A DNA stretch of 64,000 nucleotides from a virus, in the IMG/VR virus record IMGVR_UViG_3300032431_000001, positions 64,001 to 128,000 of that record; one strand, 5' to 3'. This document shows positions 38,882 through 62,452 of this stretch, one piece after another; position 1 is the first letter of the stretch; the number at the start of each line of letters is the position of its first letter. A model generated the notes under the pieces. The model was given only the letters and a program-made list of their open reading frames with translations, was not told the DNA's origin and did no database searches. The position numbers and the translations under genes were made by a program.

Positions 38882-38884
38882 TAT

Positions 38885-39951: not shown

Positions 39952-39990
39952 AAAAAGCGGGCGATCAAATTAATTCGATCGCCCCTTTTT
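39952..39990. terminator. terminator after the 40015 gene
   Basis: AAAAAAGCGGGCGATC / GATCGCCCCTTTTTT. Confidence 0.75.
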
Positions 39991-40014
39991 TATCTGTACT
40001 TTTGATCACCCTTG

Positions 40015-40167: not shown

Positions 40168-40190
40168 TTCTAGTTTACAGTGAAGGAACT

Positions 40191-40307
40191 GTGACATACT
40201 CCCACATCAAACCGAGTACGGTTATAATGTGCGCTTCTTTGCAGCCCGATGAAGGGTGTGCAAAATTTCCTTCGTGGTACTTTCATCCATAGTTCCTACT
40301 ACAGAAA
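40191..40307 (-). ncRNA. candidate omega-RNA, copy B
   Basis: Same scaffold as copy A; the guide would be AGTTCCTTCACTGTAAACTA, i.e. the leader of the HTH gene. Inferred. Confidence 0.4.
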
Positions 40308-41604
40308 TCTTTCCACTACGGCGTTTTATACTGGGGAAGATGCCCACCCCCAGTCTCTTTAAGTTAATCGCAGCATTAATGTCGCGGTCAACTATCAAAG
40401 ATTCCGACTCATCCCAATAGTCTCTGATACTGCAATCGGTGAAAATTATTTCATCTCGATAGCTGAGAACCATTGATGTGTAAGCAGGATTTTTAGAAAC
40501 AACAACTGCTCCAGCTTTTGAGGCTATGTAGTCCAGCGTTTTGAAAAAGTTACCAAATGCAGCATCAGACCAAGACTTATTTAGCCCTGACTTTGCCGAT
40601 TGACCATTTGGCAAAAATGTTCCATCTTCAGCCTGTTTAGATTTGTTCCGCTTGGTTAAACCTTTTAGGTTCAAATCCTCGTGGATGAAGACTTTCTTTC
40701 CAGTTTTTACCAGCTTGTGTGCTGTCTTGTAGTGGAAGTCTTTTCTTGATCTGGCAATACGTTGATGCTGTCTAGCTTCACGTTTTGCTAGTTTGCGACG
40801 AGATTTGCTACCTCGTTTCCGCTTATTTCGCTTGGTTGAAATCCGGTTTAATTTAGTTTGGTTTTTGCGAAGAGGCTTAAGAGACGGTAGTTTTCCACCT
40901 TCAGAGGTTGCCAAGTACACGTCTTCATGCAGCACAGCATCCATACCTAACGAATTGTCCCAGGTCGGTACAATTGCGTCCTGACTTTGGGTTGGTACAC
41001 GCACGTCTTCCAAGACGAATTGAACAAACCAACCATCAGCTTTTTTGGTGACACTGACTTGCTTGATCATGAATCCGTCTGGGATGCGACGGTGCATTCT
41101 GACTTTGACGATTCCCAGTTTTGGGAGTCGTAAGTACAGCCAGTTCTTGCGAATCAGCTTGATCCAGTTATTACTCGCCGTCGCGAAAGTCATAGTTCTG
41201 AAGCTAGCTTCAGATTTAAACCGTGGTTTGCCCGACTTACCACCGTTGCTGTCGCCAACGATAAATCGCTCAAACGCTTTATCAACACGCTTTGATACGT
41301 CTTGTAAAACGGTTGCGTCCACTCTTGAAAAGTTCAGCAATTCACCGCTATGAAAAACTTTTACCAAATCTTTCTTGATAATTGGTAACTGTTTTTTCTG
41401 GCTATAATAGTTGGGCTTTTCTCGAACAGGGGCGATACTACTAATTAACGGACAAGCATTTATGCTTGAACGATTCATCGACCACCAATCAAACCTGTCT
41501 CCCAGTTGCCGATTGTACCAATAACGACAAATTCTCAGCCACTCGTTTAATATGAGTTTCTGATTAGTGTCGGGATCTAGTTTGTATTGGTACGTTGTTT
41601 GCAC
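40222..41604 (-). CDS. tnpB: TnpB, second identical copy
   Basis: 460 residues, the same protein as 36215-37597: RuvC-I Asp in LGMDAVL, RuvC-II Glu in IHEDLNLKG, RuvC-III Asp in VDRDINAA, no zinc-finger cysteine pairs. Intact. The complete identity points to recent transposition or gene conversion. The left-end sequence from 41605 to 41850 is noncoding. Confidence 0.9.
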   Translation of the reverse strand: MQTTYQYKLDPDTNQKLILNEWLRICRYWYNRQLGDRFDWWSMNRSSINACPLISSIAPVREKPNYYSQKKQLPIIKKDLVKVFHSGELLNFSRVDATVLQDVSKRVDKAFERFIVGDSNGGKSGKPRFKSEASFRTMTFATASNNWIKLIRKNWLYLRLPKLGIVKVRMHRRIPDGFMIKQVSVTKKADGWFVQFVLEDVRVPTQSQDAIVPTWDNSLGMDAVLHEDVYLATSEGGKLPSLKPLRKNQTKLNRISTKRNKRKRGSKSRRKLAKREARQHQRIARSRKDFHYKTAHKLVKTGKKVFIHEDLNLKGLTKRNKSKQAEDGTFLPNGQSAKSGLNKSWSDAAFGNFFKTLDYIASKAGAVVVSKNPAYTSMVLSYRDEIIFTDCSIRDYWDESESLIVDRDINAAINLKRLGVGIFPSIKRRSGKISVVGTMDESTTKEILHTLHRAAKKRTL

Positions 41605-41865
41605 GATTGTTTTGGGATTTTAGCTTCACTTGGTGTTATGATAGCACATCGTTTGGCTTTGATACGGCAATCATTATTAATATATATATCAAGAATTAAG
41701 AATTTGTTCACCTCGTCATCCACCCGTTCACTGCTCAATGCTTTAAATGCATGAGGTTGCTCTTCGGGTGGAATCCTCGTCTTACCGCGTCTTTCATCCC
41801 ACACTAAGTCGAAGCGATTATAATGTGGGGATTCCCGTCTGCTTAGCTAAACTTAATTTATCCAT

Positions 41866-42195
41866 ATGATACCCACAAAAGTTGAATATTCTTTGGAATA
41901 CAAACGGGCGATCGCCACTTTAGCGGAACACTTGAAAGACTCTGATTTTATTAGTATTGTCGATTTGCCACAACTTCTGGAGAGCAATGTATTTCCTTGG
42001 GATACTTTGGTTGAAAGGTTTCCGCAAGCTCAAGAAATTGTCCGCGCGGTTCAATCGGAACTTAATTACGAACTCAGTATTAATCAATGCTGCAACGCCC
42101 TCAATTGGTTAGACAAATGCGATCCAAGCGAATGGCAATATCTACTGACCGAAAAGTCAAAAAGCCCGATAAATTTTAACTATCGGGCTTTTTGA
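41866..42195 (+). CDS. hypothetical protein
   Basis: 109 residues, helical (LAEHLKDSDFISIVDLPQLL; CNALNWLDKCDPSEW). Its start lies 15 bp beyond IS copy B, so the IS displaced or became its promoter. The coding frame runs through the terminator hairpin, so the last residues (SPINFNYRAF) are encoded by it. Confidence 0.55.
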   Translation: MIPTKVEYSLEYKRAIATLAEHLKDSDFISIVDLPQLLESNVFPWDTLVERFPQAQEIVRAVQSELNYELSINQCCNALNWLDKCDPSEWQYLLTEKSKSPINFNYRAF

Positions 42196-42200
42196 CTTTT
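42152..42200 (+). terminator. terminator overlapping the 41866 gene end
   Basis: AAAAGTCAAAAAGCCCGATA / TATCGGGCTTTTTGACTTTT. Confidence 0.8.
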
Positions 42201-42324
42201 TCATTATTTTTTTTAGCGGATGAAGTTTTGCGTTGCACAACCTGTATGTCACTTAAATATACTAAAATGACAGAGGTAGGTGCAGAAATGCCCCTATCGA
42301 CTCTAACAAATTAGCAGCAAAAAA

Positions 42325-42645
42325 ATGGATAATCTCGAAAGCCAATTAACAGAACATCACAAGGACAACGAGTTCACAGTGAAACCCGTTGATCTCGAAG
42401 AGATGATAGACAGTGCAGAAAGAGAAGAGCAGGTCTTTTTCGGCAAGGCAATGATTGTCTGCTATCAATTACGATCCGGTTTTACTGTAATGGGCATAAG
42501 TTCAGTAGTCAATCCTAAAAAATTCGACATCGAACTTGGACGACAGGTTTGCAGAAAACACGCATTACAGCAGCTCTGGCCGTTAGAAGGTTATGTAGTC
42601 CAACAGAAATTATTTAATCATCTACGCGCAGAGGAATCAGCTTAA
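42325..42645 (+). CDS. Gp49/66-family phage protein
   Basis: 106 residues. The C-terminal half VCYQLRSGFTVMGISSVVNP then KFDIELGRQVCRKHALQQLW and PLEGYVVQQKL follows the N4 gp49/Sf6 gene 66 family, whose function is unknown. N-terminus acidic. Confidence 0.75.
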   Translation: MDNLESQLTEHHKDNEFTVKPVDLEEMIDSAEREEQVFFGKAMIVCYQLRSGFTVMGISSVVNPKKFDIELGRQVCRKHALQQLWPLEGYVVQQKLFNHLRAEESA

Positions 42646-42673
42646 TTTAAAGCGATTTGATTCTTCAACTAGG

Positions 42674-42710
42674 ACTCCTACACCAACTGAGTACAGTATG
42701 GTGTAGGAGT
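42674..42710 (+). terminator. terminator after the gp49-like gene
   Basis: ACTCCTACACCA / TGGTGTAGGAGT. Confidence 0.65.
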
Positions 42711-42713
42711 ATA

Positions 42714-42761
42714 TCACCGGATAAAGTTTTGAAGTTCTGCACTACACAACCGGCGAGTTAA
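42714..42761 (-). pseudogene. fragment of a 57768-type gene
   Basis: Minus frame LTRRLCSAELQNFIR then stop, matching LTYLLCSAELKNFVR at the end of the 57768-58094 protein. Only the last about 15 codons remain. A fainter trace is near 42218-42245. Confidence 0.6.
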
Positions 42762-42785
42762 CCTATGTGCGCGGATCGGAGTAAT

Positions 42786-43073
42786 CTAATGGCTCGTCAG
42801 ATTCTGCTCCAGGCTGAAGCGCGCTCTACCAATCCGATCGTTCCAGGCTGTAGATCGCTCTACAAGAATTCGACCTTCCAGTATCGCGACTTGACGCTCA
42901 CTCAATCCATATTCTTTTGCCGTACCTGGTGGTAAAGTGTTATAGCAACCCGACAATCCTTTTGGAACCCAATAAGTCTTACCTAAAGCGACGGCGATGT
43001 ACCGCCAGTCTTGTGGCTTTGGGCACTCTCTAAATTCGTACAACGTGCAAGTGAATCTTTGGTATTTATTCAT
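42786..43073 (-). CDS. hypothetical protein
   Basis: 95 residues from ATG 43073. YQRFTCTLYEFRECPKPQDW, GKTYWVPKGLSGCYNTLPPG, basic, beta-rich start. Unknown. Downstream of 43105-43458 by 31 bp; same unit. Confidence 0.55.
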   Translation of the reverse strand: MNKYQRFTCTLYEFRECPKPQDWRYIAVALGKTYWVPKGLSGCYNTLPPGTAKEYGLSERQVAILEGRILVERSTAWNDRIGRARFSLEQNLTSH

Positions 43074-43104
43074 GCTTTTTGAGCGATTGTGAGTTGGATT
43101 GATA

Positions 43105-43458
43105 TTAAGATTCTTCGTTGTCGTCCCAGAAGTCTGGGTGCATTGTTTCATCGGCTTGAGCGAACGATACTATTTGGCGAATTAACGCTAATTCACCTTT
43201 GCCTATTACAAGCATTTTTCCAGAAAAACCAACAATTCTTTCCAATTCTTGAAGGCATTTAATCGCAAATTCGGCGATCGAAAAAGTTGCGACGTGCCGA
43301 CCACTATCCTTGTGCAGGATCTGATAGGCTTCGCAATCTTCAAAAATTATTCCTTGAGGGCGGATAACGATTGCAAAGTTCTCAAGGGCGATCGCGGGAA
43401 GATACAAAACATTAATTTCGACTTTCTGTGCGACAAGTTGTTGCTCTATGTATGCCAT
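43105..43458 (-). CDS. hypothetical protein
   Basis: 117 residues from ATG 43458. INVLYLPAIALENFAIVIRP, then a helical end RQIVSFAQADETMHPDFWDD. Unknown; may form an operon with 42786-43073. Confidence 0.5.
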   Translation of the reverse strand: MAYIEQQLVAQKVEINVLYLPAIALENFAIVIRPQGIIFEDCEAYQILHKDSGRHVATFSIAEFAIKCLQELERIVGFSGKMLVIGKGELALIRQIVSFAQADETMHPDFWDDNEES

Positions 43459-43493
43459 ATTTTTGCGGTGTTTAGAGTGGGTTAGTATGGCGA

Positions 43494-43514
43494 GCGATCG
43501 GGACAATCGATCGC
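43494..43514 (-). terminator. short HIP1-type hairpin
   Basis: GCGATCG / CGATCGC just downstream of the 43534 gene. Confidence 0.4.
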
Positions 43515-43533
43515 CCGCTTTTGTCGTTAACTA

Positions 43534-44088
43534 TTAATCGTTCGGAAATTCTTCATCGAAAATGTTAGTGTCTTGTATTGCCGAAATCGACGCTTTTTGA
43601 GTATCTGGCTTACCATTCTTTGCCTCTTTTTTTTGTGCTTGCTTCGCCAAGGCAGTGGCGCGTATTTTTTGTTTTCTCTCTATTTCTAGTTGTTGTCGCT
43701 CGATCGCTTTCTTTTTTTCACCGCGCGAACACTTGCGGGACTTTTCGATTAGGGGAGCCTTTGTGTAGCACCGATCGCACCAGTGATCAAAAGGTTGTGG
43801 TGGGAAACTTGGGAGCGATTTAGACTTCTTGTGGCACTTACTGCACTTACCAATCTTGTTGTACGAGCAAATTAGATCACCATTTTCAATGGTATAGTAG
43901 TCCTTGAATATAAAGACTTGCGATCCGTGCGTATACGATCGGGGGATATGGCTAATCTCTGAGGACTCGACTTCATAAACCAAGCGCTTGCGACCATCCG
44001 CTTTAGTCGTCCACATTTTTAAAGTAGCAACTATCGGAGTATATGATACTTCCTCTACTTGTGGGCATACTGCATTTACATCGTCCAT
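43534..44088 (-). CDS. zinc-ribbon-like protein
   Basis: 184 residues from ATG 44088. N-terminal beta part, then CSKCHKKSKSLPSFPPQPFD and CDRCYTKAP, two CxxC pairs that would bind zinc, then a long Lys/Glu/Gln helix and an acidic tail IFDEEFPND. Possibly nucleic-acid binding. Shares a divergent promoter region with 44188. Confidence 0.6.
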   Translation of the reverse strand: MDDVNAVCPQVEEVSYTPIVATLKMWTTKADGRKRLVYEVESSEISHIPRSYTHGSQVFIFKDYYTIENGDLICSYNKIGKCSKCHKKSKSLPSFPPQPFDHWCDRCYTKAPLIEKSRKCSRGEKKKAIERQQLEIERKQKIRATALAKQAQKKEAKNGKPDTQKASISAIQDTNIFDEEFPND

Positions 44089-44112
44089 GATTGTTTCTTT
44101 GATTACAACTAC

Positions 44113-44163
44113 TTTTGAAGTATAACACAATATACTTTAAGTGCAATCTTATAATGATATAAT
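44113..44163. promoter_or_regulatory. divergent promoter region
   Basis: Plus-strand TATAAT at 44150-44155 and 44158-44163; minus-strand TATACT at 44124-44119. AT-rich. Confidence 0.55.
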
Positions 44164-44187
44164 AGAAATTAATTTACAAAGGTTAAA

Positions 44188-44529
44188 ATGATGCGACCAA
44201 CATACAATATTAAGATGACTAATTGGCAGTCCCGATGCGTGGAAACCATCGAAGCTGGGTTACTAGAGTATAAGGCTCAGCAAGCTTCTTTAGATGTAGA
44301 TGTCGATCACCAGCAATGCAAAAAATGGATTTCTGTAAACAAGTATCCATTTGGGCTTAGACAAAATCATCCTTACGACGTTTGGAGGCAGGAAATAAAA
44401 ATACTCGACGAGTTCTTTATGCTTAGTATTACATTTGAAAGCTATAAGGCGTGGCGTAATGCTTACAAGAAGCCTCGCAAATCAAAGCAGAAAAACACCT
44501 GTGACAAAAATCAGCTAACATTGTTTTAG
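44188..44529 (+). CDS. hypothetical protein
   Basis: 113 residues. NWQSRCVETIEAGLLEYKAQ and VWRQEIKILDEFFMLSITFE, ending in a basic tail with KNQLTLF, a C-terminal QLTLF-like peptide that resembles a sliding-clamp (beta-clamp) binding motif. Unknown role; clamp binding is a guess. Confidence 0.5.
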   Translation: MMRPTYNIKMTNWQSRCVETIEAGLLEYKAQQASLDVDVDHQQCKKWISVNKYPFGLRQNHPYDVWRQEIKILDEFFMLSITFESYKAWRNAYKKPRKSKQKNTCDKNQLTLF

Positions 44530-44540
44530 ATGCAAAAAAG

Positions 44541-44566
44541 GGGCGATCGGAATTAACCGATCGCCC
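44541..44566. terminator. bidirectional terminator
   Basis: GGGCGATCGG / CCGATCGCCC with A/T runs between converging genes. Confidence 0.8.
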
Positions 44567-44574
44567 TTTCTTTT

Positions 44575-44943
44575 TTAATCAACTACAACAGATGTTTCTT
44601 TCTCCCGATGTAACCTGATTATCTTTGAAAACAACTTGTCAGCCGTCTCAATTGCTGAAAGCTTTAGCAAATTGCGAGCGATATATCGATCTTGCGGTGA
44701 TAATCTGTGCTTGCGATCGATCGCCACGAGTTCCGCAACTCTATCTTCATAATTCGTACAAGAGTGCCGCAAATGAGCTTTCATCATTTCTGGTGTCACC
44801 TGTTCTACAGAGGTGTCCCAGTAAATCGCGGTAGCTTGCAAAAAATCGACGAGTTGTGGGATGCGCCGGATCGTGGATCGAATCCGCACTTTCTGAGCCC
44901 AATCGACAGCAAGTTTAGTTCTTTTCTTCCACGTTTTTCCCAT
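44575..44943 (-). CDS. hypothetical helical protein
   Basis: 122 residues, basic start (GKTWKKRTKLAVDWAQKVRI) and leucine-rich helices. Last gene of the minus unit that begins with the ribonucleotide reductase. Confidence 0.55.
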   Translation of the reverse strand: MGKTWKKRTKLAVDWAQKVRIRSTIRRIPQLVDFLQATAIYWDTSVEQVTPEMMKAHLRHSCTNYEDRVAELVAIDRKHRLSPQDRYIARNLLKLSAIETADKLFSKIIRLHREKETSVVVD

Positions 44944-44947
44944 AATG

Positions 44948-45127
44948 CTACTTTTGCTGTTTCCGTCTTTGCCCCTTACCTTGTCTAGTGTGAGTGCGAG
45001 GGACTGTTACCTCAATTTCTTTAACTGAGCCCCCAAGCTTGTCTTTTTTTGCGACGCGATCGAGCAAGCGCAATACGCTGGCGGCTTCTTCGTGGGTCCT
45101 GTATCCAAGGATTTTATAATTTGGCAT
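44948..45127 (-). CDS. hypothetical small basic protein
   Basis: 59 residues from ATG 45127 (MPNYKILGYRTHEEAASVLR), basic C-terminus RQGKGQRRKQQK. Overlaps the end of 45114-45503 by 14 bp, four bases before 44575-44943: tightly packed operon. Confidence 0.5.
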   Translation of the reverse strand: MPNYKILGYRTHEEAASVLRLLDRVAKKDKLGGSVKEIEVTVPRTHTRQGKGQRRKQQK

Positions 45128-45503
45128 TACTTCTTGACCATTCCCCGTATTTGGTTTTGATTTCTCTAGAATACTTCGCAAACAGTCGCGGATCACGTTG
45201 CGTCCATTCAAATTCGCGCCCTGTGGTATACCCTCGGAGTAGATAAGAAGGGTATTTGCCAAGTCCTGGGTCTTTCTCGTCGCTTCTGCCCTGGTATAGG
45301 TGCAGATGTACAACACCCTTCTCGTCGATGTAATCGCGATCGATCCGTCGTATTACAATTCCAATTGTTTCACCGGAAGTGTGATGCCGCACAGTATCTC
45401 CTTCTTTGTAGAGATATTCTGGATCTGGTTCTGGTGGGACTGTGTTCGCTTGACAGCCCCACATTTGGCATTCTGGTGTGCCACAAGATTGCTTACAGTT
45501 CAC
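45114..45503 (-). CDS. hypothetical Cys-rich-start protein
   Basis: 129 residues. CKQSCGTPECQMWGCQANTV at the N-terminus holds four cysteines; EGDTVRHHTSGETIGIVIRR suggests an SH3-like fold. Its start overlaps the reductase end by 11 bp, so co-translated with it. Confidence 0.55.
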   Translation of the reverse strand: MNCKQSCGTPECQMWGCQANTVPPEPDPEYLYKEGDTVRHHTSGETIGIVIRRIDRDYIDEKGVVHLHLYQGRSDEKDPGLGKYPSYLLRGYTTGREFEWTQRDPRLFAKYSREIKTKYGEWSRSNAKL

Positions 45504-47850
45504 GATCGTTGGCGACAGGCATCAAGCATTTATCGGAGTCACACGCGGCAGGTCCGTCAGCTTCTTCGGAAGAAGTGTACTTAGATATTGCTTCGTAGAA
45601 ATCAGTGCAAATGCGACGCGATTCTACTTCTTTGCAAAGTTGGTTGTAGGTTTCGCGGGAGATCGGCTCGAATGGCATTCGCGGGAAAGTTTCGTATTCG
45701 TCGAATCGTGCTAAGATTGCCGCCGAGACATAACCTTCATTTTTTTGAATCGCTTCATAAATAAGTACCCCCAAGTCTTCGGTTTCGTGGTCTCGCACTT
45801 CGATTGTCGCCGATGTGTTGTGCCTCGTGTAAAACTTCTGCACCTGCATATAGAAGTCAAACTGAGTCGAAGCCGAAAACTTACTGATGTCGATATCTTG
45901 AACGCCGGCGCACATGGCCCAAGCAGTCTGGGTTGGGACTTCGATTAACCATTCCGTACAACCCTCGTCAAACGGATCGTTGAGCAGTTGTCCGTTTTTA
46001 TCTTTGTCTGATTGTGCGGGTACGACAGAATAGCCACAGTCGATCGCCGCAAGCGCGATCGGGTGATTTTTGCCGACGGTAATTCTCCGAATAAACAGTG
46101 CACCTTTTGGTGGATGCCAACCAGGGGACGCCCCGGTAAGCAAGCTCTTTGTTCCAGCAGGTTGAACCGTAGTGCAGCGGTTCGGGCATTTTAAGTTGTG
46201 TTTTTCACAGTAATCTTGTACCGTTTTTTCGACAATTTCGCGCCAACTTTCCAGAAAAATCCGCTCTAGATCACGGTATAGTGTTCCGAAATTCCACCCG
46301 GTTTCTTGTTCGTAATCGTCAATTTCAACATTAAACTGCGCGCAGATTGCTTCGATCACCGAGTCTATGCGTTTGATCTTATAAAAGTTGGGGCGACCTG
46401 CTTGCCACCACCGAAGCCAATCTACTCCAAAACCCTGGACAAAAAAGTCGAACAACCCTGTGAAAGATACGCCGATGATCGGATCTAATTCCCGACTTTT
46501 TTGCAACCTTGGGTGATCAAATTCGTGCTGTAAAAAAGCTGCGACGATTAATGCCCCAGCTTTGAATGCGTTGATTTGTTCTTCTAGATTTTGTGCGTCT
46601 ATTCTGTTGAGATGTACTTCAGATAAGTTGCACATAAAGTCAGCACCTATTATTTCTCCGCAGGGGTTTAAACCCATACGATTGAGACGATGGTTCCGCT
46701 CTTCTCCACTCATATCTGGCAGATATTCCTTGAACCAAGTTTCTTGTTCTCCTTTTTTACAAGCTTCTAGAAATTCGGTTCTGGAGAGTTGATTCCATAG
46801 ATCGCTATTCGCACGCGCCAAAGCTTCTCCAGCCCACTGGATCGCCCCTTCTCCCGATTTGTGCTGCTTTTTTACAGCGGTAATGCACTCTTCTAGCGTT
46901 GGTGCGCGATCGAAAATTCGGGTGTGGTTTGCCATCCGAAGCGCGTCTCGCTTCTGGTCTATTTTCCAGTTTCCGCTTTCATCTTGATCCCATAGGTTGT
47001 CTTTCGCTTCCGAAGCTTTTTGATCGTTACGAGAAAATTGACGAATTCCGGCCGTTCTTCGTATGTTCCCAGCCACGACCACGATCGCCGCTTCATCAAT
47101 CAGTAGGCAACATTCGATCGAGTCGAGCTGGCGATCGGTCGCGTGGTTGAGAATTTCTGCAATGCGGTAAAACAGATCGGGTAGCTTAACGGGATTTGAC
47201 ACCCCTCCAAAACCTTTGAGTTTTTCACCGGCAGGACGTACTGAACTTAGATCGACGTAAACTTTGACTCGCTTTGTGATGAAACTTGTATCAAACGCTA
47301 AGTCGATCAATGCTTGATAAGCTGTCGCCCAACCCTTGCGACTGTCGCCGACCCAGATGATGGTAGAGTAATTATTTTGCGTCGTCTTCGTTTTTTCTTG
47401 ACGCAAGTGCGACAGCATATCTCCGATTTCAGCGCATATCTCAATGTCTAGCTTATTTCTGACTTTCGGTAGATGTTTGATACACTCTTGCGATAGTACC
47501 GCCCCAGTTCCGCAGCCCATCATTGCCAAATCCATCAACAACCCAAAAGTGTCGAGATGGTTTACTTGCAAACTGGTGCAGTTGTAAGCACCGGGAAAAT
47601 TTACTTGTTCCTCGATCCACGGTCTACCGCTCGTCCACAAGCTGCGACCGGACGCTAGGCACTTAAAGCTGTAGTGCTGCTCGATAATTAATTCTGTCTC
47701 TTTATCGGTAAGCTTTCCCAGCTTTTTGATTCCGGACACTGTTCTTTCGGTGACCTGCTCCCAGGTTTCTCGCTGTCCACTCTGATTGTGGCTATACGAT
47801 CGAAAAAAGACTAATTCGGCATTGGGCGCATTTTCTGGAAACATTGACAT
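45493..47850 (-). CDS. nrdJ: class II (adenosylcobalamin) ribonucleotide reductase
   Basis: 785 residues, the length of monomeric class II enzymes. Active-site pieces: YNCTSLQVN, MGCGTGAVL, GNIRRTAGI, NPCGEI (radical cysteine), CTTVQPAGTKSLLTG for substrate phosphate, and a C-terminal CDSDKC redox pair with four-residue spacing. It reduces ribonucleoside triphosphates with B12, without oxygen, supplying dNTPs. No intein visible. Heads the minus operon 44575-47850. Confidence 0.93.
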   Translation of the reverse strand: MSMFPENAPNAELVFFRSYSHNQSGQRETWEQVTERTVSGIKKLGKLTDKETELIIEQHYSFKCLASGRSLWTSGRPWIEEQVNFPGAYNCTSLQVNHLDTFGLLMDLAMMGCGTGAVLSQECIKHLPKVRNKLDIEICAEIGDMLSHLRQEKTKTTQNNYSTIIWVGDSRKGWATAYQALIDLAFDTSFITKRVKVYVDLSSVRPAGEKLKGFGGVSNPVKLPDLFYRIAEILNHATDRQLDSIECCLLIDEAAIVVVAGNIRRTAGIRQFSRNDQKASEAKDNLWDQDESGNWKIDQKRDALRMANHTRIFDRAPTLEECITAVKKQHKSGEGAIQWAGEALARANSDLWNQLSRTEFLEACKKGEQETWFKEYLPDMSGEERNHRLNRMGLNPCGEIIGADFMCNLSEVHLNRIDAQNLEEQINAFKAGALIVAAFLQHEFDHPRLQKSRELDPIIGVSFTGLFDFFVQGFGVDWLRWWQAGRPNFYKIKRIDSVIEAICAQFNVEIDDYEQETGWNFGTLYRDLERIFLESWREIVEKTVQDYCEKHNLKCPNRCTTVQPAGTKSLLTGASPGWHPPKGALFIRRITVGKNHPIALAAIDCGYSVVPAQSDKDKNGQLLNDPFDEGCTEWLIEVPTQTAWAMCAGVQDIDISKFSASTQFDFYMQVQKFYTRHNTSATIEVRDHETEDLGVLIYEAIQKNEGYVSAAILARFDEYETFPRMPFEPISRETYNQLCKEVESRRICTDFYEAISKYTSSEEADGPAACDSDKCLMPVANDREL

Positions 47851-47878
47851 ATTACTTTTTCCTTTTATCTAAATCCAG

Positions 47879-48427
47879 TTAAAACGGTAGCTCTAACTGG
47901 GTGTAATTGGATTTAAACCGCTTTCTACGCGAAGGATTCTGCTTGATATCTTCCCATCGCTTGTTGCTAAGAATTGCGGAAATATTCGGACGCGAAACTT
48001 GAAATTTGTTGGCGATCGCTTGATGCGTATATTCTCCGGTTTGCCCCATTTTTTTGATTTGCAGAATCTGCTTTTTATTCAGCTTTGTGCCTCTAGCTCC
48101 TATTTTTTTCTTGTGTGTACCGTGCCTGATTTTGTCTGCTATATTTTCCGCTTTTGTCCCCCATCTGAGATTGGTTAAGCAGTTGTTAAGTCGGTTTCCG
48201 TCGCGGTGACACGCTTCGTAGTCGAGACTTGGAGGATCGCCAATAAAAGCTAAAAGTACCAATCGATGTAGCGCTTTCGGCTTTGTTCTTATTTTCGCAT
48301 AGAAATAACCATCACTTAGAATAGCGCTAGGTTGTGGATTTCCGTGCAAGAAAACATTTCCAAATATATCGATCTCGTATTCGGGAGCGTATGGAATTGG
48401 TTTCTGGAATAAAGAGGGCTGTAGCAT
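47879..48427 (-). CDS. HNH homing-type endonuclease
   Basis: 182 residues. Early YEIDIFGNVFLHGN is NUMOD4-like. ALHRLVLLAFIGDPPSLDYE, then CHRDGNRLNNCLTNLRWGT is HNH_3; the C-terminal TGEYTHQAIANKFQVSRPNI is a helix-turn-helix for DNA recognition. Free-standing, next to the reductase gene, a common homing site. Confidence 0.85.
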   Translation of the reverse strand: MLQPSLFQKPIPYAPEYEIDIFGNVFLHGNPQPSAILSDGYFYAKIRTKPKALHRLVLLAFIGDPPSLDYEACHRDGNRLNNCLTNLRWGTKAENIADKIRHGTHKKKIGARGTKLNKKQILQIKKMGQTGEYTHQAIANKFQVSRPNISAILSNKRWEDIKQNPSRRKRFKSNYTQLELPF

Positions 48428-48458
48428 CTTTTAAATTGAGCGACTACGCGTTAAAAGA

Positions 48459-49745
48459 TTAACGTATTTCGGAATCCGATCGCACCTGATTTTCTTGGCG
48501 ATCGCCAGCAGCACCTTCGACACAGATCGCCAGATCCATGTCTAGCGGCGGTGGAGCAATTCGCGATCTTACGTTAGCGAAGCCCTCGAAGAGGATCGCC
48601 TGTTTTGTAGAGGGCATTATCGTGAACGCCGCAACGAACACTTCTGGCTGGACTTCACTCAAACAGCTAGCCGCGAAAATCTGACCGTCTTTGTAGCTAG
48701 TTTCGGCAATAGCTTGCAAGTCGTTAATTCGCTTAAACAACGGGTTTTCTGCGTGTTCGACCGCAAGTTTAATTTTATCGAGATGTCCTTTTTCTGAGAC
48801 AAGCTGCAACAAGTCTCCGACTACCTTGGAATCTTTAGGCTTAGCGCGTACCAAATCCTTTGCAGGAACCTTCACACTTGTACCGTCAAGGCAAAGCACT
48901 TCGACAAGTTCCAAATCCCCTGGTTCGTAGCCCTGCACAACTACCGTATGTCCGTACAGCGCTTGATGATCGCCTCTGACAATTGCAGCTTCGTGGAGAC
49001 GGGCGATCGGTTCGTCTGTGAATTTTTTCTGCCCTCGGAGTAGCAGTTTTTCTTCCCCAGAACCGTCTATCCGCACAATTACGCCGTCAAGCGCTTCGTC
49101 CTCTCCGTCAATGTGTTCGACGACCACGCCTCGCATGGTTTTATCAAATTCTACGCGATCGTCAACCTCTGGCAGTGTAAATCTTTTAACCAAATTCCCA
49201 ATCCTTGCGGGGACGAGATCGTTCTTGGGATCTGTTTCGTTCGCTACCTGTACGTCAGATACTACTTCCTCCAAGATGGCGATCGCGACCTGTCGGCGAC
49301 GTTCTACTTCTGTCGCTCGGACGTTCGGCTTGGAGTAGGAATCAGGCAATTTTGTTATCAGTCCAAATCCGACGCCCAAACCAACCTCCGAGAAGATGGT
49401 GCGTAGTGCGTTTTCCGTTTCCACTGGGCGATCGAGTTTTCGCTCCCATTCGACCAATCGAATACCAATTTCGATATCGGCTCGAAAACTCTTTTTCAGT
49501 TCCCGGCGCATAAATGACTGGAGTTTTTTTTCTTCTCCCGATGCGGCCGCTTGCTCCTTGATTTCGCTGTAGAGATGTCCGATATTTAGGAAATACTGGC
49601 GAACCTCGTCTATTATATTTGGAGCCTTCTCCAGCATATGGACATTGAGACTGTCGATCGCCAGCTCCCAATCTTTGCCCATATCGATCTCTTTTGTGCC
49701 GTCAACAGAGGGGGGTTCTTGAATATCCAGTCTTTCGTCGCTCAT
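48459..49745 (-). CDS. hypothetical phage protein
   Basis: 428 residues. Helical N-terminal half (KAPNIIDEVRQYFLNIGHLY; FRADIEIGIRLVEWERKLDR), then a beta-rich part with repeated V-V/I-G-D patterns (VVVQGYEPGDLELVEVLCLD). Could be a structural or DNA-metabolism protein. I do not recognise it. Confidence 0.5.
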   Translation of the reverse strand: MSDERLDIQEPPSVDGTKEIDMGKDWELAIDSLNVHMLEKAPNIIDEVRQYFLNIGHLYSEIKEQAAASGEEKKLQSFMRRELKKSFRADIEIGIRLVEWERKLDRPVETENALRTIFSEVGLGVGFGLITKLPDSYSKPNVRATEVERRRQVAIAILEEVVSDVQVANETDPKNDLVPARIGNLVKRFTLPEVDDRVEFDKTMRGVVVEHIDGEDEALDGVIVRIDGSGEEKLLLRGQKKFTDEPIARLHEAAIVRGDHQALYGHTVVVQGYEPGDLELVEVLCLDGTSVKVPAKDLVRAKPKDSKVVGDLLQLVSEKGHLDKIKLAVEHAENPLFKRINDLQAIAETSYKDGQIFAASCLSEVQPEVFVAAFTIMPSTKQAILFEGFANVRSRIAPPPLDMDLAICVEGAAGDRQENQVRSDSEIR

Positions 49746-49751
49746 AAAAAA

Positions 49752-49795
49752 AACTCGGTAAGTGGGAAACTCGGTGGCTTAAACCGAGAGGGAAC
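49752..49795 (+). repeat. IS200/IS605-like left-end scrap
   Basis: AACTCGGTAAGTGGGAAACT followed by CGGTGGCTTAAACCGAG, a near match to the inverted sequence at 56796-56830. No transposase. Confidence 0.5.
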
Positions 49796-49809
49796 CATGT
49801 GTGCGTTTA

Positions 49810-50031
49810 TTACAGCTTTACAGCAGATGCGCGATCTCTAGGAGGTCTCGCATCTTTTGTCCGCCGCGATTGATTTCGCTTGCGCCCTAAATCTTCATTG
49901 AGAATCTGGCTAATCAGCGCAGCAATCGTCAAATCACGTCGCTCAGCTTCTGCCGCTAAAAACGGATACAGCATCTCCATGATCTCGACTGTTACTTTGG
50001 TTGCTATGTATTTAATTTCTTGTTGAGGCAT
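49810..50031 (-). CDS. RHH-type DNA-binding protein
   Basis: 73 residues. EIKYIATKVTVEIMEMLYPF then ERRDLTIAALISQILNEDL fits ribbon-helix-helix. The C-terminus is very basic (GRKRNQSRRTKDARPPRDR). Confidence 0.6.
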   Translation of the reverse strand: MPQQEIKYIATKVTVEIMEMLYPFLAAEAERRDLTIAALISQILNEDLGRKRNQSRRTKDARPPRDRASAVKL

Positions 50032-50178
50032 CGCGTTACTCCAAACTTTACGACATTTTGATATCTACCAAGATAGCGCTTATTCCGGTTAAGTGCTATT
50101 TCGTAACAAAACTTAACAAATTGTCCTGTTTTGTTCGCTTTGCGACGGATTAATGGTCGGGGCACGACTCAAACGTCC

Positions 50179-57160: not shown

Positions 57161-57556
57161 TTACTCTACTTCTGGCGATCCGTAACCGTAACACTTGGTG
57201 TATTTCCCTTTACTTGCTCGAAGGCGATCGCTTTCAAGCAAAAAGGTTTCAACGTCATACGGCGATTCGAGTGTACCCCTTTTGCGGGCGACTACATAAT
57301 CTTGACTCGCCCAGTAGTCAGCCATTGCTTCGGCTACGAGGGTTAAGTCGTAGTTTTCGTTAGGGTGAATGTGCAGACAGGTATCAAAATCAGTGGGTTC
57401 GAGTCCTATGTACCCGCTTTCAGCAACATCTTGCTTTACTTTCTCCAATAATTTCTTGGTTGTTGCGTTTACTTTTAACAAGTAAGGCGAGCCTTCAACT
57501 TTTTCGTACAAACGAAAAGAAATGTCTGACAATCGAACGTGCGCTAATAATAACAT
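57161..57556 (-). CDS. hypothetical protein
   Basis: 131 residues. LRLYEKVEG-like beta start (DISFRLYEKVEGSPYLLKVN), then DTCLHIHPNENYDLTLVAEA and KYTKCYGYGSPEVE. First of three small minus-strand cassettes. Unknown. Confidence 0.55.
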   Translation of the reverse strand: MLLLAHVRLSDISFRLYEKVEGSPYLLKVNATTKKLLEKVKQDVAESGYIGLEPTDFDTCLHIHPNENYDLTLVAEAMADYWASQDYVVARKRGTLESPYDVETFLLESDRLRASKGKYTKCYGYGSPEVE

Positions 57557-57702
57557 ATCGGTTCCTAAGAGTAACTACTTCTATAATATACTCTAACTAG
57601 GTACAACCGTCAAGCAGTAGTGTAAAGCCAAATATTGTCTGAATCCGATCGCCCGCTCTTAAATAAAAGCTACGCTATCTGTATACCAATTTTAAATAAA
57701 AA

Positions 57703-57740
57703 AGCGGGCGATCTAATTAATTTAATTAGATCGCCCGCTC
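57703..57740. terminator. terminator of the 57768 cassette
   Basis: AGCGGGCGATCTAATTAA / TTAATTAGATCGCCCGCT. Confidence 0.85.
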
Positions 57741-57767
57741 TCAAATAAACCCCAATCTATATGTCAG

Positions 57768-58094
57768 TCACCGGACGAAGTTTTTAAGTTCTGCACTACA
57801 CAATAGGTAAGTTAGGTTATCCGCCTGTTCTTGCAGGTAAGAACTTCTTGAAAGTTTGTAGATGTCTACATCAATTTCAATGAAGTCCGTTGCCTGTTTT
57901 ACGTGATTCATTCCGCAGACAAGACTACCCTTCTTTATCACATGGTATTCAAATTCTCCCCCAGAAATCTCTTTCACGAGAACTTTCCATGAGATTTTAC
58001 AGATTTTTTCATCTGTTTCGCAAAAAGGTCGGCTTTGCTCTTCGTAAAGCTGTTTGATCGCTTGACGATAAACCGCGTCGTAGTAATCAGGCAT
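57768..58094 (-). CDS. hypothetical protein, cassette gene 1
   Basis: 108 residues from ATG 58094, AGGAGA ribosome site. YYDAVYRQAIKQLYEEQSRP then ISWKVLVKEISGGEFEYHVI and LLCSAELKNFVR. A 3' fragment of a relative is at 42714-42761. Confidence 0.6.
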   Translation of the reverse strand: MPDYYDAVYRQAIKQLYEEQSRPFCETDEKICKISWKVLVKEISGGEFEYHVIKKGSLVCGMNHVKQATDFIEIDVDIYKLSRSSYLQEQADNLTYLLCSAELKNFVR

Positions 58095-58123
58095 TGTTTT
58101 CTCCTTTGTATTTTTGTACTGCA

Positions 58124-58132
58124 ATTATACCA
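58124..58132 (-). promoter_or_regulatory. extended minus-10 promoter
   Basis: TGGTATAAT on the minus strand, within a stretch closely similar to that at 58589-58597. Confidence 0.6.
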
Positions 58133-58193
58133 CAAGCGTAACACAAAAACAATATGAATTAATTTAATGTGTGCTACATTTTATTTCGTAATA

Positions 58194-58237
58194 AAAAGCG
58201 GGCGATCTAATTAAATTAATTAGATCGCCCGCTTTTT
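58194..58237. terminator. terminator of the 58242 cassette
   Basis: AAAAAGCGGGCGATCTAATT / AATTAGATCGCCCGCTTTTT. Confidence 0.85.
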
Positions 58238-58241
58238 TTGT

Positions 58242-58559
58242 TTACCATTGATTCTGCATAGTTGCTTCTGCATATTCGCTCTCAGAGAATAGGTCTCCTT
58301 TATTTTGGAGGTCGTCTACCCAGATTTGGATGAGCGATGACCCATATTCCTCGGCGTCTTCATCGCTTTCCTCGATTGCATACGACCACTCTGTACCGAT
58401 AGCGGCACTAGGACCGTGAATCGAGCAGTACCGGGTTTCTGACCCGATGATTCGTTCAAATCCATCCTTGGATTTGAAAGTATACACAGATATCTTGTCT
58501 CCATTTTCCGCAGTCACCTGATAGAAGGCAAACTGTTTCGTCATTGCTTGTGAGTTCAT
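58242..58559 (-). CDS. hypothetical acidic protein, cassette gene 2
   Basis: 105 residues; ATG 58544 is an alternative start. FAFYQVTAENGDKISVYTFK then WSYAIEESDEDAEEYGSSLI. Acidic C-terminal half. Promoter and terminator look like those of cassette gene 1, yet the protein is unrelated. Confidence 0.6.
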   Translation of the reverse strand: MNSQAMTKQFAFYQVTAENGDKISVYTFKSKDGFERIIGSETRYCSIHGPSAAIGTEWSYAIEESDEDAEEYGSSLIQIWVDDLQNKGDLFSESEYAEATMQNQW

Positions 58560-58588
58560 GTCGTTACCTTTGGTTTGTTTGTACTACA

Positions 58589-58597
58589 ATTATAACA
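58589..58597 (-). promoter_or_regulatory. extended minus-10 promoter
   Basis: TGTTATAAT on the minus strand, followed by TTGTAGTACAAA as in the neighbouring cassette (TTGCAGTACAAA). Confidence 0.6.
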
Positions 58598-58659
58598 TAA
58601 AGTAACACAAGACAACATAAATTAATTTAATTTGCGTTATATTTTACTTCTTAATAATA

Positions 58660-58698
58660 AAGCGGGCGATCGAATTACTTTAATTCGATCGCCCGCTT
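58660..58698. terminator. terminator of the 58735 gene
   Basis: AAGCGGGCGATCGAATTA / TAATTCGATCGCCCGCTT. Confidence 0.85.
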
Positions 58699-58734
58699 TT
58701 TACTAACCTTTCGATAGACTTGTAGTTTTTGATT

Positions 58735-59001
58735 TTAATTAATTGGATTATTCCGATCGCCCTCTAATTCTAAACGACGTTTCTCGACAAGCTGTTTATA
58801 CTCTTTCGTTAACCTACGTTCTTCGCTGGCAGCAACAAATGCGATACTTCCCGCCGAGGTCAAGGCTATTACTTCCGGTGAAGGCTTACCCCCTGTTATT
58901 ACTAGCATTGCGCCAATCCCGATCGCCACTTGTGTTGATTGTGTTAACAGAGAGTGCAGTCCAGATTCCGCTACTTTTTCGATATTTTCTCGATCGCGCA
59001 T
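58735..59001 (-). CDS. small membrane protein
   Basis: 88 residues. VAIGIGAMLVITGG and VIALTSAGSIAFVAA are two short hydrophobic segments, with charged ends. Holin-like topology, but in the early block next to RusA; compare 63437-63772. Unknown. Confidence 0.5.
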   Translation of the reverse strand: MRDRENIEKVAESGLHSLLTQSTQVAIGIGAMLVITGGKPSPEVIALTSAGSIAFVAASEERRLTKEYKQLVEKRRLELEGDRNNPIN

Positions 59002-59014
59002 AATTTCTCCTATT

Positions 59015-59503
59015 TTAATATTTGATCGGTTCTGGGTCTTTCATTATTTGTCGATTGCTGACCGTGATAATCAACTTGATATCTTTTCCTTTCAGGGGAG
59101 GTCGCCGATCGCACGTCTGTTTTAGCCATTTGGGGCTGTCGTCCACGATCAACTTAGATTCCACCAATCCATCGAGCAACATTTTTCGAGACGCTTCTAA
59201 ATTGTCGTCGTCCGTGCGATCGTCTACAAAAAATAAGAAATTAATCCAAACGCGCTCACGATACTTGATTAAGTTTTTATTTTCTACGAGACAGATCATT
59301 CTGCTAGCCCATACTCGCTGCTGCTTGTCGAATTCACTTGTTCTGTTGGTTCCCTTGAAACCTCCGGGCGATCGGCACTTAAAAAGTGAGCGCATTTTCA
59401 GCATTTCGTTCATAGTCGGAGGAATTTCGCTCAGCGTGAAATTCTGGACTAAGTGCGGGATGTTGACGATTTGGAAATCTTTTTTACTTGTTCTTTTTGC
59501 CAT
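59015..59503 (-). CDS. RusA-like Holliday junction resolvase
   Basis: 162 residues. IPPTMNEMLKMR near 27, then DRTDDDNLEASRKMLLDGLV and KLIVDDSPKWL supply the catalytic aspartates of RusA. It cuts branched DNA during phage replication and packaging. Follows the NblA-like gene in the minus block. Confidence 0.8.
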   Translation of the reverse strand: MAKRTSKKDFQIVNIPHLVQNFTLSEIPPTMNEMLKMRSLFKCRSPGGFKGTNRTSEFDKQQRVWASRMICLVENKNLIKYRERVWINFLFFVDDRTDDDNLEASRKMLLDGLVESKLIVDDSPKWLKQTCDRRPPLKGKDIKLIITVSNRQIMKDPEPIKY

Positions 59504-59511
59504 TTTTTAAA

Positions 59512-59549
59512 AGGAAGCGCAGGCTTGCCTGTCGGAGAGCAAGACTGCG
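59512..59549 (-). terminator. hairpin after the NblA-like gene
   Basis: AAGCGCAGGCTTGC / GCAAGACTGCGCTT; terminator of the upstream gene or leader of RusA. Confidence 0.5.
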
Positions 59550-59558
59550 CTTGTTTGT

Positions 59559-59810
59559 TTATTGTTGCTGGGCGATCGACCGCCTGTAAGCTTCGTACTC
59601 TTTTTCGACTTTGTTGAGCTGGTAGTGGCAGTCTTTTTCGCTAGTAAACGCTTCTTTTAAAAAGCCCTTGTAAGCGTGTTCTTGCTGAGCTTTTTGTGTC
59701 GCTTGTTGGATGAACAAAACACGTAAATCTTCAACACCGAGATTTGAGATTTGGTGCTCCAAGACTGTGAGATATAGTTGAGACTCTAGTGAAAGGTGTT
59801 GTTCAGTCAT
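59559..59810 (-). CDS. nblA: NblA-like phycobilisome degradation protein
   Basis: 83 residues. LSLESQLYLTVLEHQISNLG then VEDLRVLFIQQATQK, HAYKGFLKEA reproduces the NblA layout (LSLEq-f-----E-Q---ms-E-l---Li-l--q-------Y--llk). NblA links phycobilisomes to Clp protease so antenna proteins are broken down. A C-terminal coiled-coil tail of about 25 residues extends beyond the usual 55-65. NblA genes are known in phages of bloom-forming cyanobacteria. Between CAP and RusA genes. Confidence 0.65.
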   Translation of the reverse strand: MTEQHLSLESQLYLTVLEHQISNLGVEDLRVLFIQQATQKAQQEHAYKGFLKEAFTSEKDCHYQLNKVEKEYEAYRRSIAQQQ

Positions 59811-59816
59811 TTTTAC

Positions 59817-60368
59817 CTACCGTGATCTTGCGAAAAGTTGGGTCACGTAAATCACGAATCCGCTATCACCATCTTCGTCGCGCGCTGGATGCGACACAAC
59901 TCCAATTCCGGTATGGGTTGATTCGACCTCTTCTATTGCTTCTCGATGTCCTTGGGTGCTAGCGATCCACTTTGCGAGCATTAACTCTGTTATCGATCGC
60001 CTGCTTTGGACTGTTTTGTAGTGATACGCAAGAACCTGAGCTGTTCCTAAGTTTTCCCTTATTTCTTTAAACCCAAGTTCTCGCACTTGTTCCGCTCGTT
60101 CGATGAAGCCAGAATGACCTATTGTGCCACCCCAGTAATCGGTGTCGCACAACCACTGACTGTGTTTTCTGGCTATACCACTAATCCCAGACACCAACTT
60201 CAATGGGGGTAGTCTTAAGCCGGTTCGGTGTTGGTTTACAACATCGAAGACTTCAGTCTCAAAGCTAATGTCTGGTTCTGGAACTTTGATTTCCAGCGGG
60301 CGATCTGTTACAGGCTCAGGAACTGGAACTGGAAACGGATTAAAGAAATTGAGAAGTGTGTTCGTCAT
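59817..60368 (-). CDS. CAP (SCP/PR-1) domain protein
   Basis: 183 residues. A Pro-rich start (NPFPVPVPEPV) leads to FDVVNQHRTGLRLPPL, IGHSGFIERAEQ, RENLGTAQV, WIASTQGHREAI, GIGVVSHP and YVTQLF, the CAP fold with its two His and ENxG signature. No signal peptide. Bacterial CAP proteins are often secreted, but here it could act in the cytoplasm. A partial copy follows at 60817-60995. Confidence 0.8.
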   Translation of the reverse strand: MTNTLLNFFNPFPVPVPEPVTDRPLEIKVPEPDISFETEVFDVVNQHRTGLRLPPLKLVSGISGIARKHSQWLCDTDYWGGTIGHSGFIERAEQVRELGFKEIRENLGTAQVLAYHYKTVQSRRSITELMLAKWIASTQGHREAIEEVESTHTGIGVVSHPARDEDGDSGFVIYVTQLFARSR

Positions 60369-60465
60369 GACTTTGATGTTTCTATCAATTGTTGTGGTTT
60401 ACAAAAAATCCCGTTTGCAGCGACGATCACGATTCGATCGCCTGCTTTGCGTTGAGAGGCTGGGT

Positions 60466-60750
60466 TCAGAAAAAAAACCCGTTGTTTGTGCTCGCAAAAT
60501 CAAATTGAACGTTCAACTGTTTTGCGATTCTATTTCCTTGCTGCTCCGCCAGCAAAACCTTTCTCAGAATGTTTGAGTCGTCTATGGTTATTCCGGGTTC
60601 GGCTGTAAAAGAAACTGTTTCTTCTGACGTGTTGGTTGTTACGACAAATCCCAGTTTTTCAACTTCGTCTTGGATTTGACGAAGAACTGTCTTGACTAAA
60701 TTGGGATCTTTTGTCTGAACTGGATATCGTAATCTGCCGAGATATTGCAT
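60466..60750 (-). CDS. hypothetical protein
   Basis: 94 residues from ATG 60750. RLRYPVQTKDPNLVKTVLRQ then LGFVVTTNTSEETVSFTAEP and AKQLNVQFDFASTNNGFFF. Looks like a small alpha/beta domain. Unknown. Located between CAP gene and its truncated copy. Confidence 0.5.
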   Translation of the reverse strand: MQYLGRLRYPVQTKDPNLVKTVLRQIQDEVEKLGFVVTTNTSEETVSFTAEPGITIDDSNILRKVLLAEQQGNRIAKQLNVQFDFASTNNGFFF

Positions 60751-60816
60751 TGTATTTTTCCTCTTAGTGCTTGTCATTATTTTTTTCCATCTTTTTCCGC
60801 TTCCTCTCTAGAACCG

Positions 60817-60995
60817 CTATCCCATTGAGGAGTGGAATAGCCTGGGAGGGCATGGATGGCTATCAGCAAAATCGTAAAGGTGATTATCAGAAGTCTTGAC
60901 ATCGAAGATATTCCTCTCAAAATTAAAGTCTGGTTCTGGAACTTTGATTTCCAGCGGGCGATCTATTGCAGACTCAGGGGTTGCAAACAGATTAT
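60817..60995 (-). pseudogene. truncated copy of the CAP gene start
   Basis: Minus frame FATPESAIDRPLEIKVPEPD then FNFERNIFDV matches PVTDRPLEIKVPEPDISFET of the CAP protein, then diverges (KTSDNHLYDFADSHPCPPR) and stops. No start codon. Confidence 0.65.
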
Positions 60996-61001
60996 AGAAA
61001 G

Positions 61002-61694
61002 CTATTTGATGACACGATCGCCACGTCCAGCTTCCACTAAAGAAAAAGCCTCTGGTTCTGAAATTCCAACACGGACGGGTTCGCCGTAGAAGTCTTTAAC
61101 AAGCGTATAGCTTGTCGAGTATCTCAATATCGCCCCATCGTCGGGTCGGATGAGATTGTATTCGTAGTTTGGCGCTTCTTCTTCGTCGTACAACAGGCGG
61201 ATTAATGCCCCGTATTCGTCGCTAAGGTTAGTCCCATCCAATTTCCAAGACTGGCGGTAGTCGTACCCAGTCCAGTTAGGTGCTTGGCGCAACCCTCTTT
61301 TGGGTGGTACGTTACTGTGCTTGCACCGGTCGTTGATCATACTTACTATCGTCACAAGCTTACCTTCGCTCGCTTCGATCGCCATTGGTTCGAGCGATCG
61401 CGCCAGCCTCGGATTTGACCTTCCGATCTCGTTCAGTCTGACTTCCGAAAACAGAGAGAAGCTCGGCGGCGTCGCCAATATCTGGTACGGCTTACCTCCG
61501 CCACGACGGATTTCTGCTCTTTGTAGTCCACGTCGCAGACATTCTGAAATAATAAAGTTCCGCGCCGATTCAGAGCTGTTGATATGCGACGACACCCACT
61601 CTGCATGAGAGCGTGGGTCTATAAACAGCGTTTCGCCGTCGTCATATACCTCGCAGTGTGGGATCAATGTGTCCTTTACATCATCTAAAAACAT
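61002..61694 (-). CDS. protein with a PAS-like C-terminal domain
   Basis: 230 residues from ATG 61694, overlapping the upstream gene by 14 bp. N-terminal part DTLIPHCEVYDDGETLFIDP; C-terminal third WKLDGTNLSDEYGALIRLLY then NYEYNLIRPDDGAILRYSTS and EPVRVGISEPEAFSL resembles a PAS/PAC end (yeyRl-rpDGs-rw ... G-pv-v-g). Could sense a ligand or mediate binding. Low-to-medium certainty. Confidence 0.5.
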   Translation of the reverse strand: MFLDDVKDTLIPHCEVYDDGETLFIDPRSHAEWVSSHINSSESARNFIISECLRRGLQRAEIRRGGGKPYQILATPPSFSLFSEVRLNEIGRSNPRLARSLEPMAIEASEGKLVTIVSMINDRCKHSNVPPKRGLRQAPNWTGYDYRQSWKLDGTNLSDEYGALIRLLYDEEEAPNYEYNLIRPDDGAILRYSTSYTLVKDFYGEPVRVGISEPEAFSLVEAGRGDRVIK

Positions 61695-62148
61695 TCTTTT
61701 TCTCCGGTGAATCAAGATCGAATTGCAGATTGCGGCTTTGGTACAACTGTTCCAGGCTGTAATCTACACAGTCAGCCGCGACTAGGAATGATAAGTCAGA
61801 GTCTGTTGGGCGATCGCCCGAAACAAGGGCTTCGAGTCGTTCTACAGGGATTTTGATCTCCTGCGCCAGATCGCTTAGTTGGATATTTTTCAATATCTGG
61901 GCGATCGGTGGCGCCGGATTCAAAAACGGATCTTCTGTGATGTGTCGCCCGTGATGCTTAAAGTAATTGTTGGCGATGATCACCAACTCCTCTATGTACT
62001 TTGGCATCGTCACGCGCGCCATTGTTGCCAGAACTTTAAGAGCCGTTTTAATTCGCTCTGGCATCCGCACTTTAATTTCTGATTGCTTTTCTGTTGGATG
62101 TTTCACGAAGTTGTCCTTGTCCTTGTTCTTGTATCTGTAAGGCGGCAT
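61681..62148 (-). CDS. DNA-binding protein, RHH plus HTH
   Basis: 155 residues. EIKVRMPERIKTALKVLATM then MPKYIEELVIIANNY is ribbon-helix-helix; LKNIQLSDLAQEIKIPVERL then EALVSGDRPTDSDLSFLVAA is an XRE-like helix-turn-helix. Likely a regulator of the early block. Confidence 0.65.
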   Translation of the reverse strand: MPPYRYKNKDKDNFVKHPTEKQSEIKVRMPERIKTALKVLATMARVTMPKYIEELVIIANNYFKHHGRHITEDPFLNPAPPIAQILKNIQLSDLAQEIKIPVERLEALVSGDRPTDSDLSFLVAADCVDYSLEQLYQSRNLQFDLDSPEKKNVFR

Positions 62149-62452
62149 CCATTATATAGGCGTACCGACGAGCCATATCAGTCGCCTTTTCCCAGCAAGT
62201 ACCCCAATTCCGAGCGGAGTCGAAGCTTATGCCCCAATGTTGAATTTCTCGGAGACACGCTTGTCGCCACGTTAGAGCGACGCGATCGCCAGTTCTAAAA
62301 TCCCGCCCCCACTGGGCTAGTCGATCATACTTATGGATTCCGTAGAGCTTTGGAACCCATCTGTCGAAGAAATCTTGCAGATCCATTCGAGATCCCGGCT
62401 CCAATATTAGACTCATCAACGGACTCCGATCTTGCTTTGGTGTGGTTAGCAT
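62072..62452 (-). CDS. hypothetical protein, first of the early block
   Basis: 126 residues; ATG 62416 is an alternative start. DLQDFFDRWVPKLYGIHKYD, Trp-rich (AQWGRDFRTGD; REIQHWGIS). Overlaps 61681-62148 by 77 bp. Unknown. Confidence 0.5.
   Translation of the reverse strand: MLTTPKQDRSPLMSLILEPGSRMDLQDFFDRWVPKLYGIHKYDRLAQWGRDFRTGDRVALTWRQACLREIQHWGISFDSARNWGTCWEKATDMARRYAYIMDAALQIQEQGQGQLRETSNRKAIRN

Follow-up and report, generated by a model that had tools for sequence, protein, structure and literature searches.

NblA, about 60 residues long, serves as an adaptor for ClpC, and its helix-loop-helix mimics parts of phycobiliproteins (PMC7966870). ClpC binding has been attributed to its N-terminal motif and phycobiliprotein binding to a C-terminal one (PMC4103541). 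A heterodimer of NblA1 and NblA2 is required in Synechocystis, according to the title of a study cited in PMC7966870. Phycobilisomes are given in the account of PMC9602691 as up to half of the cyanobacterial soluble protein, so a phage that orders their destruction would gain both amino acids and control over the light input. The same account describes phage NblAs as expressed during infection and those from freshwater and marine metagenomes as causing the loss of phycobilins when expressed in model strains.

Phage nblA is, therefore, already known, including, in the account of PMC9602691, strongly diverged marine forms that were found only by a distant-homology search. What is new here is the lineage of the NblA-like protein described below, together with its CAP/RusA locus and its conserved, coiled-coil-like C-terminal extension.

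Results

The phage and its probable host

The window, i.e., the whole stretch of 64,000 nucleotides that was analysed, comprises bases 64001–128000 of a 188,399-bp virus record that carries an 84-bp direct terminal repeat. Genes for a terminase, a major head protein, an endolysin, a tail fibre, and a DNA helicase mark the record as that of a tailed phage. The class II ribonucleotide reductase is closest to those of Cylindrospermopsis phages (54.6%), and the cyanobacterial HIP1 octamer GCGATCGC occurs at 84 sites compared with the 1.8 expected from base composition. Furthermore, the window contains two identical copies of a TnpB-type insertion element, which is most closely related to those of the filamentous cyanobacterium Phorm 6 and of Lyngbya sp. 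CCAP 1446/10 (87–89% protein identity), followed by Argonema and Microcoleus. The reductase relatives, the HIP1 excess, and the TnpB relatives point to a host that is probably a filamentous cyanobacterium of the Oscillatoriales type; a bloom-forming host is not indicated. Host nblA was present in all eight genomes tested among the TnpB-relative cyanobacteria. Neither this phage nor the related phage described below carries psbA-family (PF00124) or phycobiliprotein (PF00502) genes.

Several other features of the record were observed. The two identical TnpB-type genes encode 460 aa each and lie on the minus strand (window 36215–37597 and 40222–41604). Counting these, the 188-kb record holds 11 TnpB/OrfB-like ORFs of 330 aa or more that resemble one another; window 18227–19555 belongs to a further pair, distinct from the 11. 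For a phage, this load of IS200/IS605-type elements is unusually heavy. A single ORF of 4,834 codons occupies record positions 35650–50154, outside the window. Three paralogous large proteins (~31% identity) are encoded at window 2724–5405 and 5789–7348 and at record 2911–4668; the two in the window lie a short distance apart, near the head genes. Terminases 99–100% identical to that of this phage also occur in two viral contigs of different metagenomic origin (3300022839 and 3300007517), which shows that it, or near-identical phages, recur across datasets.

The NblA-like gene and its locus

The NblA-like gene encodes the protein P0001 and, reading along the minus strand, begins 6 bp after the end of the CAP gene and is followed after 55 bp by the start of the RusA-like gene (Table 1). 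Both neighbours had been named in a preliminary description of this DNA, and the profile matches bear them out. The three genes belong to a block of small genes, several of which are kept in order in a related phage, IMGVR_UViG_3300018890_000001. That this is an early block, as the preliminary description called it, is something that we infer from the gene content; the helicase and ribonucleotide reductase genes are located elsewhere in the record, away from the block.

Table 1. Features of the NblA-like locus (window coordinates).
Feature	Position	Strand	Evidence
NblA-like gene P0001, 83 aa, ATG start, TAA stop	59559–59810	−	ORF call and homology searches
NblA-homologous core, residues 5–53 (HLSLESQLYLTVLEHQISNLGVEDLRVLFIQQATQKAQQEHAYKGFLKE)	59652–59798	−	PF04485 positions 2–49; ungapped hhalign, 52 columns, probability 91%
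C-terminal extension, residues 55–83, heptads compatible with a coiled coil	59562–59648	−	Tail survey, heptad test, homologue model (helix 25–81)
Strong RNA hairpin just 3′ of the NblA-like stop	59515–59552	−	−21.3 kcal/mol, z −4.6
CAP-superfamily gene, 183 aa, directly upstream of the NblA-like gene	59817–60368	−	PF00188, 36.2 bits, E 1.2e-8, above cut-off
RusA-like Holliday junction resolvase gene, 162 aa, directly downstream	59015–59503	−	phrog_34, E 2.6e-7; phrog_1682, E 8.8e-7
Block of about eleven small same-strand genes containing the CAP/NblA-like/RusA trio	57161–62452	−	ORFs; synteny with IMGVR_UViG_3300018890_000001

The hairpin behind the NblA-like stop has a counterpart at the same place in the related phage, of unrelated sequence (z −3.4, compared with −4.6 in the window). 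The presence of a strong hairpin 3′ of the stop in both phages suggests that the NblA-like gene ends its transcript, and the hairpin likely marks the 3′ end, though it was absent from the listing of a consensus terminator scan. Separately, a long, near-identical hairpin (GCGGGCGATCTAATTAAATTAATTAGATCGCCCGC) occurs twice, about 500 bp apart, between small genes of the block (window 57700–57742 and 58193–58237).

P0001 is homologous to NblA

Among 24,736 Pfam families, the top match to P0001 was NblA (PF04485; residues 6–53, 22.1 bits, E 2.1e-4). A sequence search of the PDB returned only three NblA chains, the best being 3cs5 (E 7.9e-4). Similarly, NblA (NF045916) was the sole match in NCBIfam (E 4.5e-4), with 20.3 bits against a strict cut-off of 100 bits. 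When 386 cyanobacterial genomes were searched with P0001, six places were found at E ≤ 0.01, five of which are host nblA genes. We then used a custom profile built from 42 other NblAs, leaving out these five host matches. P0001 scored 24.5 bits against this profile, compared with a maximum of 15.5 bits for 20,000 shuffled sequences of the same composition and 4.8 bits for the best of the other ORFs of the phage genome. Finally, in a profile–profile comparison, the two phage proteins aligned with six NblAs ungapped over 52 columns at a probability of 91%.

These results give statistical support over the whole 50-residue NblA core, and the homology of residues 5–53 to NblA is, on the sequence comparisons, well supported. 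The original recognition of an NblA layout in this protein was thus upheld, and the profile search proposed for it did return NblA, but with a score that falls short of the curated Pfam cut-off of 25 bits. As the Pfam and NCBIfam scores both stay under the curated cut-offs and the LSLEQQF motif has lost two residues that are otherwise invariant, we call P0001 a diverged NblA-like protein and not NblA proper. Weak matches to PADLOC LmuC (E 0.004) and Pfam CdiI_3 (E 0.03) were set aside as coiled-coil/helix noise.

In P0001, the LSLEQQF motif reads LSLESQL; L6, S7, L8, E9, and Q11 are kept, and the Gln and Phe that are invariant in 46 of 46 aligned NblAs are replaced by Ser and Leu. The homologue in the related phage has Val and Ala at these positions. 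At the end of helix 2, in the region reported to bind phycobilisomes, NblAs carry a near-invariant Lys (Lys-53 in the host form of 65 residues); P0001 has it as K52, and the relative’s homologue has Asn instead. The C-terminal FLK triplet, common in host NblAs, is present in P0001. Because two invariant residues of the N-terminal motif are replaced, NblA activity is not to be assumed. Furthermore, since the changed residues fall in the two reported binding regions, the retargeting of the protein and the antagonism of host NblA stay candidates. In an NblA tree, the two long phage proteins group together as a separate clade (support 100/95); a very long branch sets them off from the NblAs of Microcystis and Planktothrix phages, although the placement is unsure given the few columns.

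A fast-changing homologue in a related phage

The related phage is a metagenomic record of 199,763 bp, the terminase of which is 90% identical to that of the window phage. Its homologue of P0001, 34% identical over the full length, sits at the same place between CAP and RusA, inside a long syntenic stretch. Searched alone, this homologue gave no PF04485 match at E ≤ 1; it was detected only via the synteny and the window’s own sequence. The NblA-like protein is 34–37% identical between the two phages, compared with 68% for RusA and mostly 50–74% for the neighbouring proteins, and its gene is among the fastest changing in the stretch. This divergence may reflect an arms race or a relaxed function. 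The two genes differ at 43, 28, and 47 of 82 first, second, and third codon positions, respectively, a pattern that fits a maintained reading frame.

At about positions 5542–6000 of the relative (L115), the CAP gene stops after 122 codons and is followed by coding remnants, and the NblA-like gene is intact. A CAP–nblA operon as a conserved, intact unit is ruled out, as CAP is broken there.

Exact-pattern searches for P0001, CAP, and RusA in viral contigs gave no match, nor did a tblastn search of P0001 against annotated phages or a search of viral and genome contigs with patterns from the two-sequence alignment. The lineage, with its 28-residue tail in two related phages, was not found elsewhere in these searches.

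The C-terminal extension and the predicted fold

We compared how far 117 distinct sequences, taken from hosts, known phages, and viral contigs, extend beyond the NblA core. P0001 and its homologue in the related phage both have a tail of 28 residues, and the other 115 have one of at most 16; P0001 has 83 residues, compared with 54–72 in the host NblAs examined. The two phage tails are of equal length and share the same heptad register, and their joint enrichment of hydrophobic residues at a/d positions was reached by 0.02% of column permutations (p = 0.05 for P0001 alone). The extension is, therefore, as unusual as first described, and its heptads are compatible with the coiled coil then proposed.

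The AlphaFold2 model of the relative’s homologue, folded as a single chain with P0001 as the second alignment row, had a mean pLDDT of 92 and consisted of a helix (7–21), a turn, and a second helix (25–81) that runs unbroken through the tail. This is how NblA is laid out, apart from the longer helix 2, and the model of the homologue thus shows, for a single chain, the helix-turn-helix that the preliminary description had set as a check. When P0001 was folded by itself, the model was poor (pLDDT 68); these elements were again present, with helix 2 broken. For P0001, the predicted fold is helix 1, a tight turn, and one long helix 2 spanning the extension. Foldseek searches with both models gave no useful match, which is unsurprising for a two-helix protein of elongated shape; consequently, the fold was assigned from the layout only.

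Discussion

Could a phage use such a protein to dismantle the light-harvesting antenna of its host? On balance, the sequence evidence leads us to think that P0001, a phage-borne, strongly diverged NblA homologue, would probably act as a phage ClpC adaptor for phycobilisome breakdown, with its dimer or target altered by the coiled-coil extension. The degradation of phycobilisomes is a function that we infer by analogy with known NblAs. In such a mechanism, the NblA-like protein would be made during infection together with the CAP protein and would dimerise via the NblA helix hairpin; a coiled coil formed by the extended helices would make this dimer longer. The dimer would dock on the host phycobilisome and the ClpC chaperone, and the host Clp protease would then dismantle the antenna. 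Amino acids would thereby be released and the light input lowered, both of which have been reported for other phage NblAs. The extension might change the stability of the dimer, the choice between a homodimer and a heterodimer with host NblA, or the preferred phycobiliprotein.

A more speculative proposal, which we put forward tentatively, is that NblA has evolved in this phage lineage into a Clp adaptor of a new kind or a modulator of NblA, in which the hairpin would be the dimer platform and the long coiled-coil arm would redirect the host Clp protease to another target or override host NblA. In one form of this idea, the NblA-derived scaffold would present something to ClpC or another host protein, phycobilisomes would no longer be the target, and the extension would be a new recognition arm. 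We consider such retargeting unlikely: it would fit the loss of the invariant residues in both phages and of the Lys in one, the gain of a long arm, the separate long branch in the tree, and the fast divergence of the gene beside slower neighbours, but P0001 retains the near-invariant Lys, the FLK triplet, and most of the N-terminal motif.

NblA acts as a dimer, and the phage protein might instead pair with host NblA via the hairpin and block its action, thereby keeping the antenna and photosynthetic energy available during infection. Although the heterodimer requirement in Synechocystis (known here from the cited title) and the altered motif assigned to ClpC binding are compatible with such antagonism, the phage NblAs reported as tested in the account of PMC9602691 degrade phycobilisomes, and the psbA-family gene that would fit keeping photosynthesis going is absent, which makes this quite improbable in our judgement. 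Finally, it is very hard to believe that P0001 is a generic small helical hairpin or coiled-coil phage protein that scores as NblA by convergence, since, even though its fold is simple, Foldseek was of no use, and the syntenic homologue alone matches no NblA model, three libraries and the 386-genome search single out NblA, far above shuffles, in the setting of a cyanobacterial phage.

As a diverged NblA homologue, P0001 widens the range of phage nblA to include large phages whose hosts are probably filamentous cyanobacteria of the Oscillatoriales type. P0001 also provides a naturally occurring variant that is simple to test: its added helix arm may alter what a very small protease adaptor recognises. 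Because such NblAs can score below standard cut-offs, phage NblAs are possibly under-counted.

Compared with the known systems, P0001 resembles host NblA (PF04485; e.g., 3cs5 of Synechococcus elongatus and 2q8v/2qdo of Thermosynechococcus vulcanus) in its helix-turn-helix layout and near-invariant Lys, and 3cs5 matches residues 5–53 ungapped. It differs from host NblA in its 28-residue helical tail, its length of 83 aa, the replaced Gln and Phe of LSLEQQF, and scores below the curated cut-offs. The marine cyanophage NblAs (S-SCSM1, S-TIM5, and cyanopodoviruses; PMC9602691, and Nadel et al. 2019 cited there) are likewise described as diverged and as found by distant-homology search, and a marine metagenomic NblA is described in the same sources as active. 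In our profile search, S-TIM5, P60, Syn5, and S-CBP2 gave no PF04485 match. These marine proteins are set beside P0001 by description only, and the part of PMC9602691 that describes them reports no C-terminal extension. The Microcystis phages Ma-LMM01 and MaMV-DC and the Planktothrix phage PaV-LD likewise carry nblA on phages of phycobilisome-bearing freshwater cyanobacteria. However, their NblAs score 45–52 bits against PF04485 and have tails of at most 10 residues, whereas P0001 scores 22.1 bits and has a tail of 28. The loci differ as well: nblA of PaV-LD adjoins a thymidylate kinase gene, whereas the NblA-like gene described here adjoins CAP and RusA.
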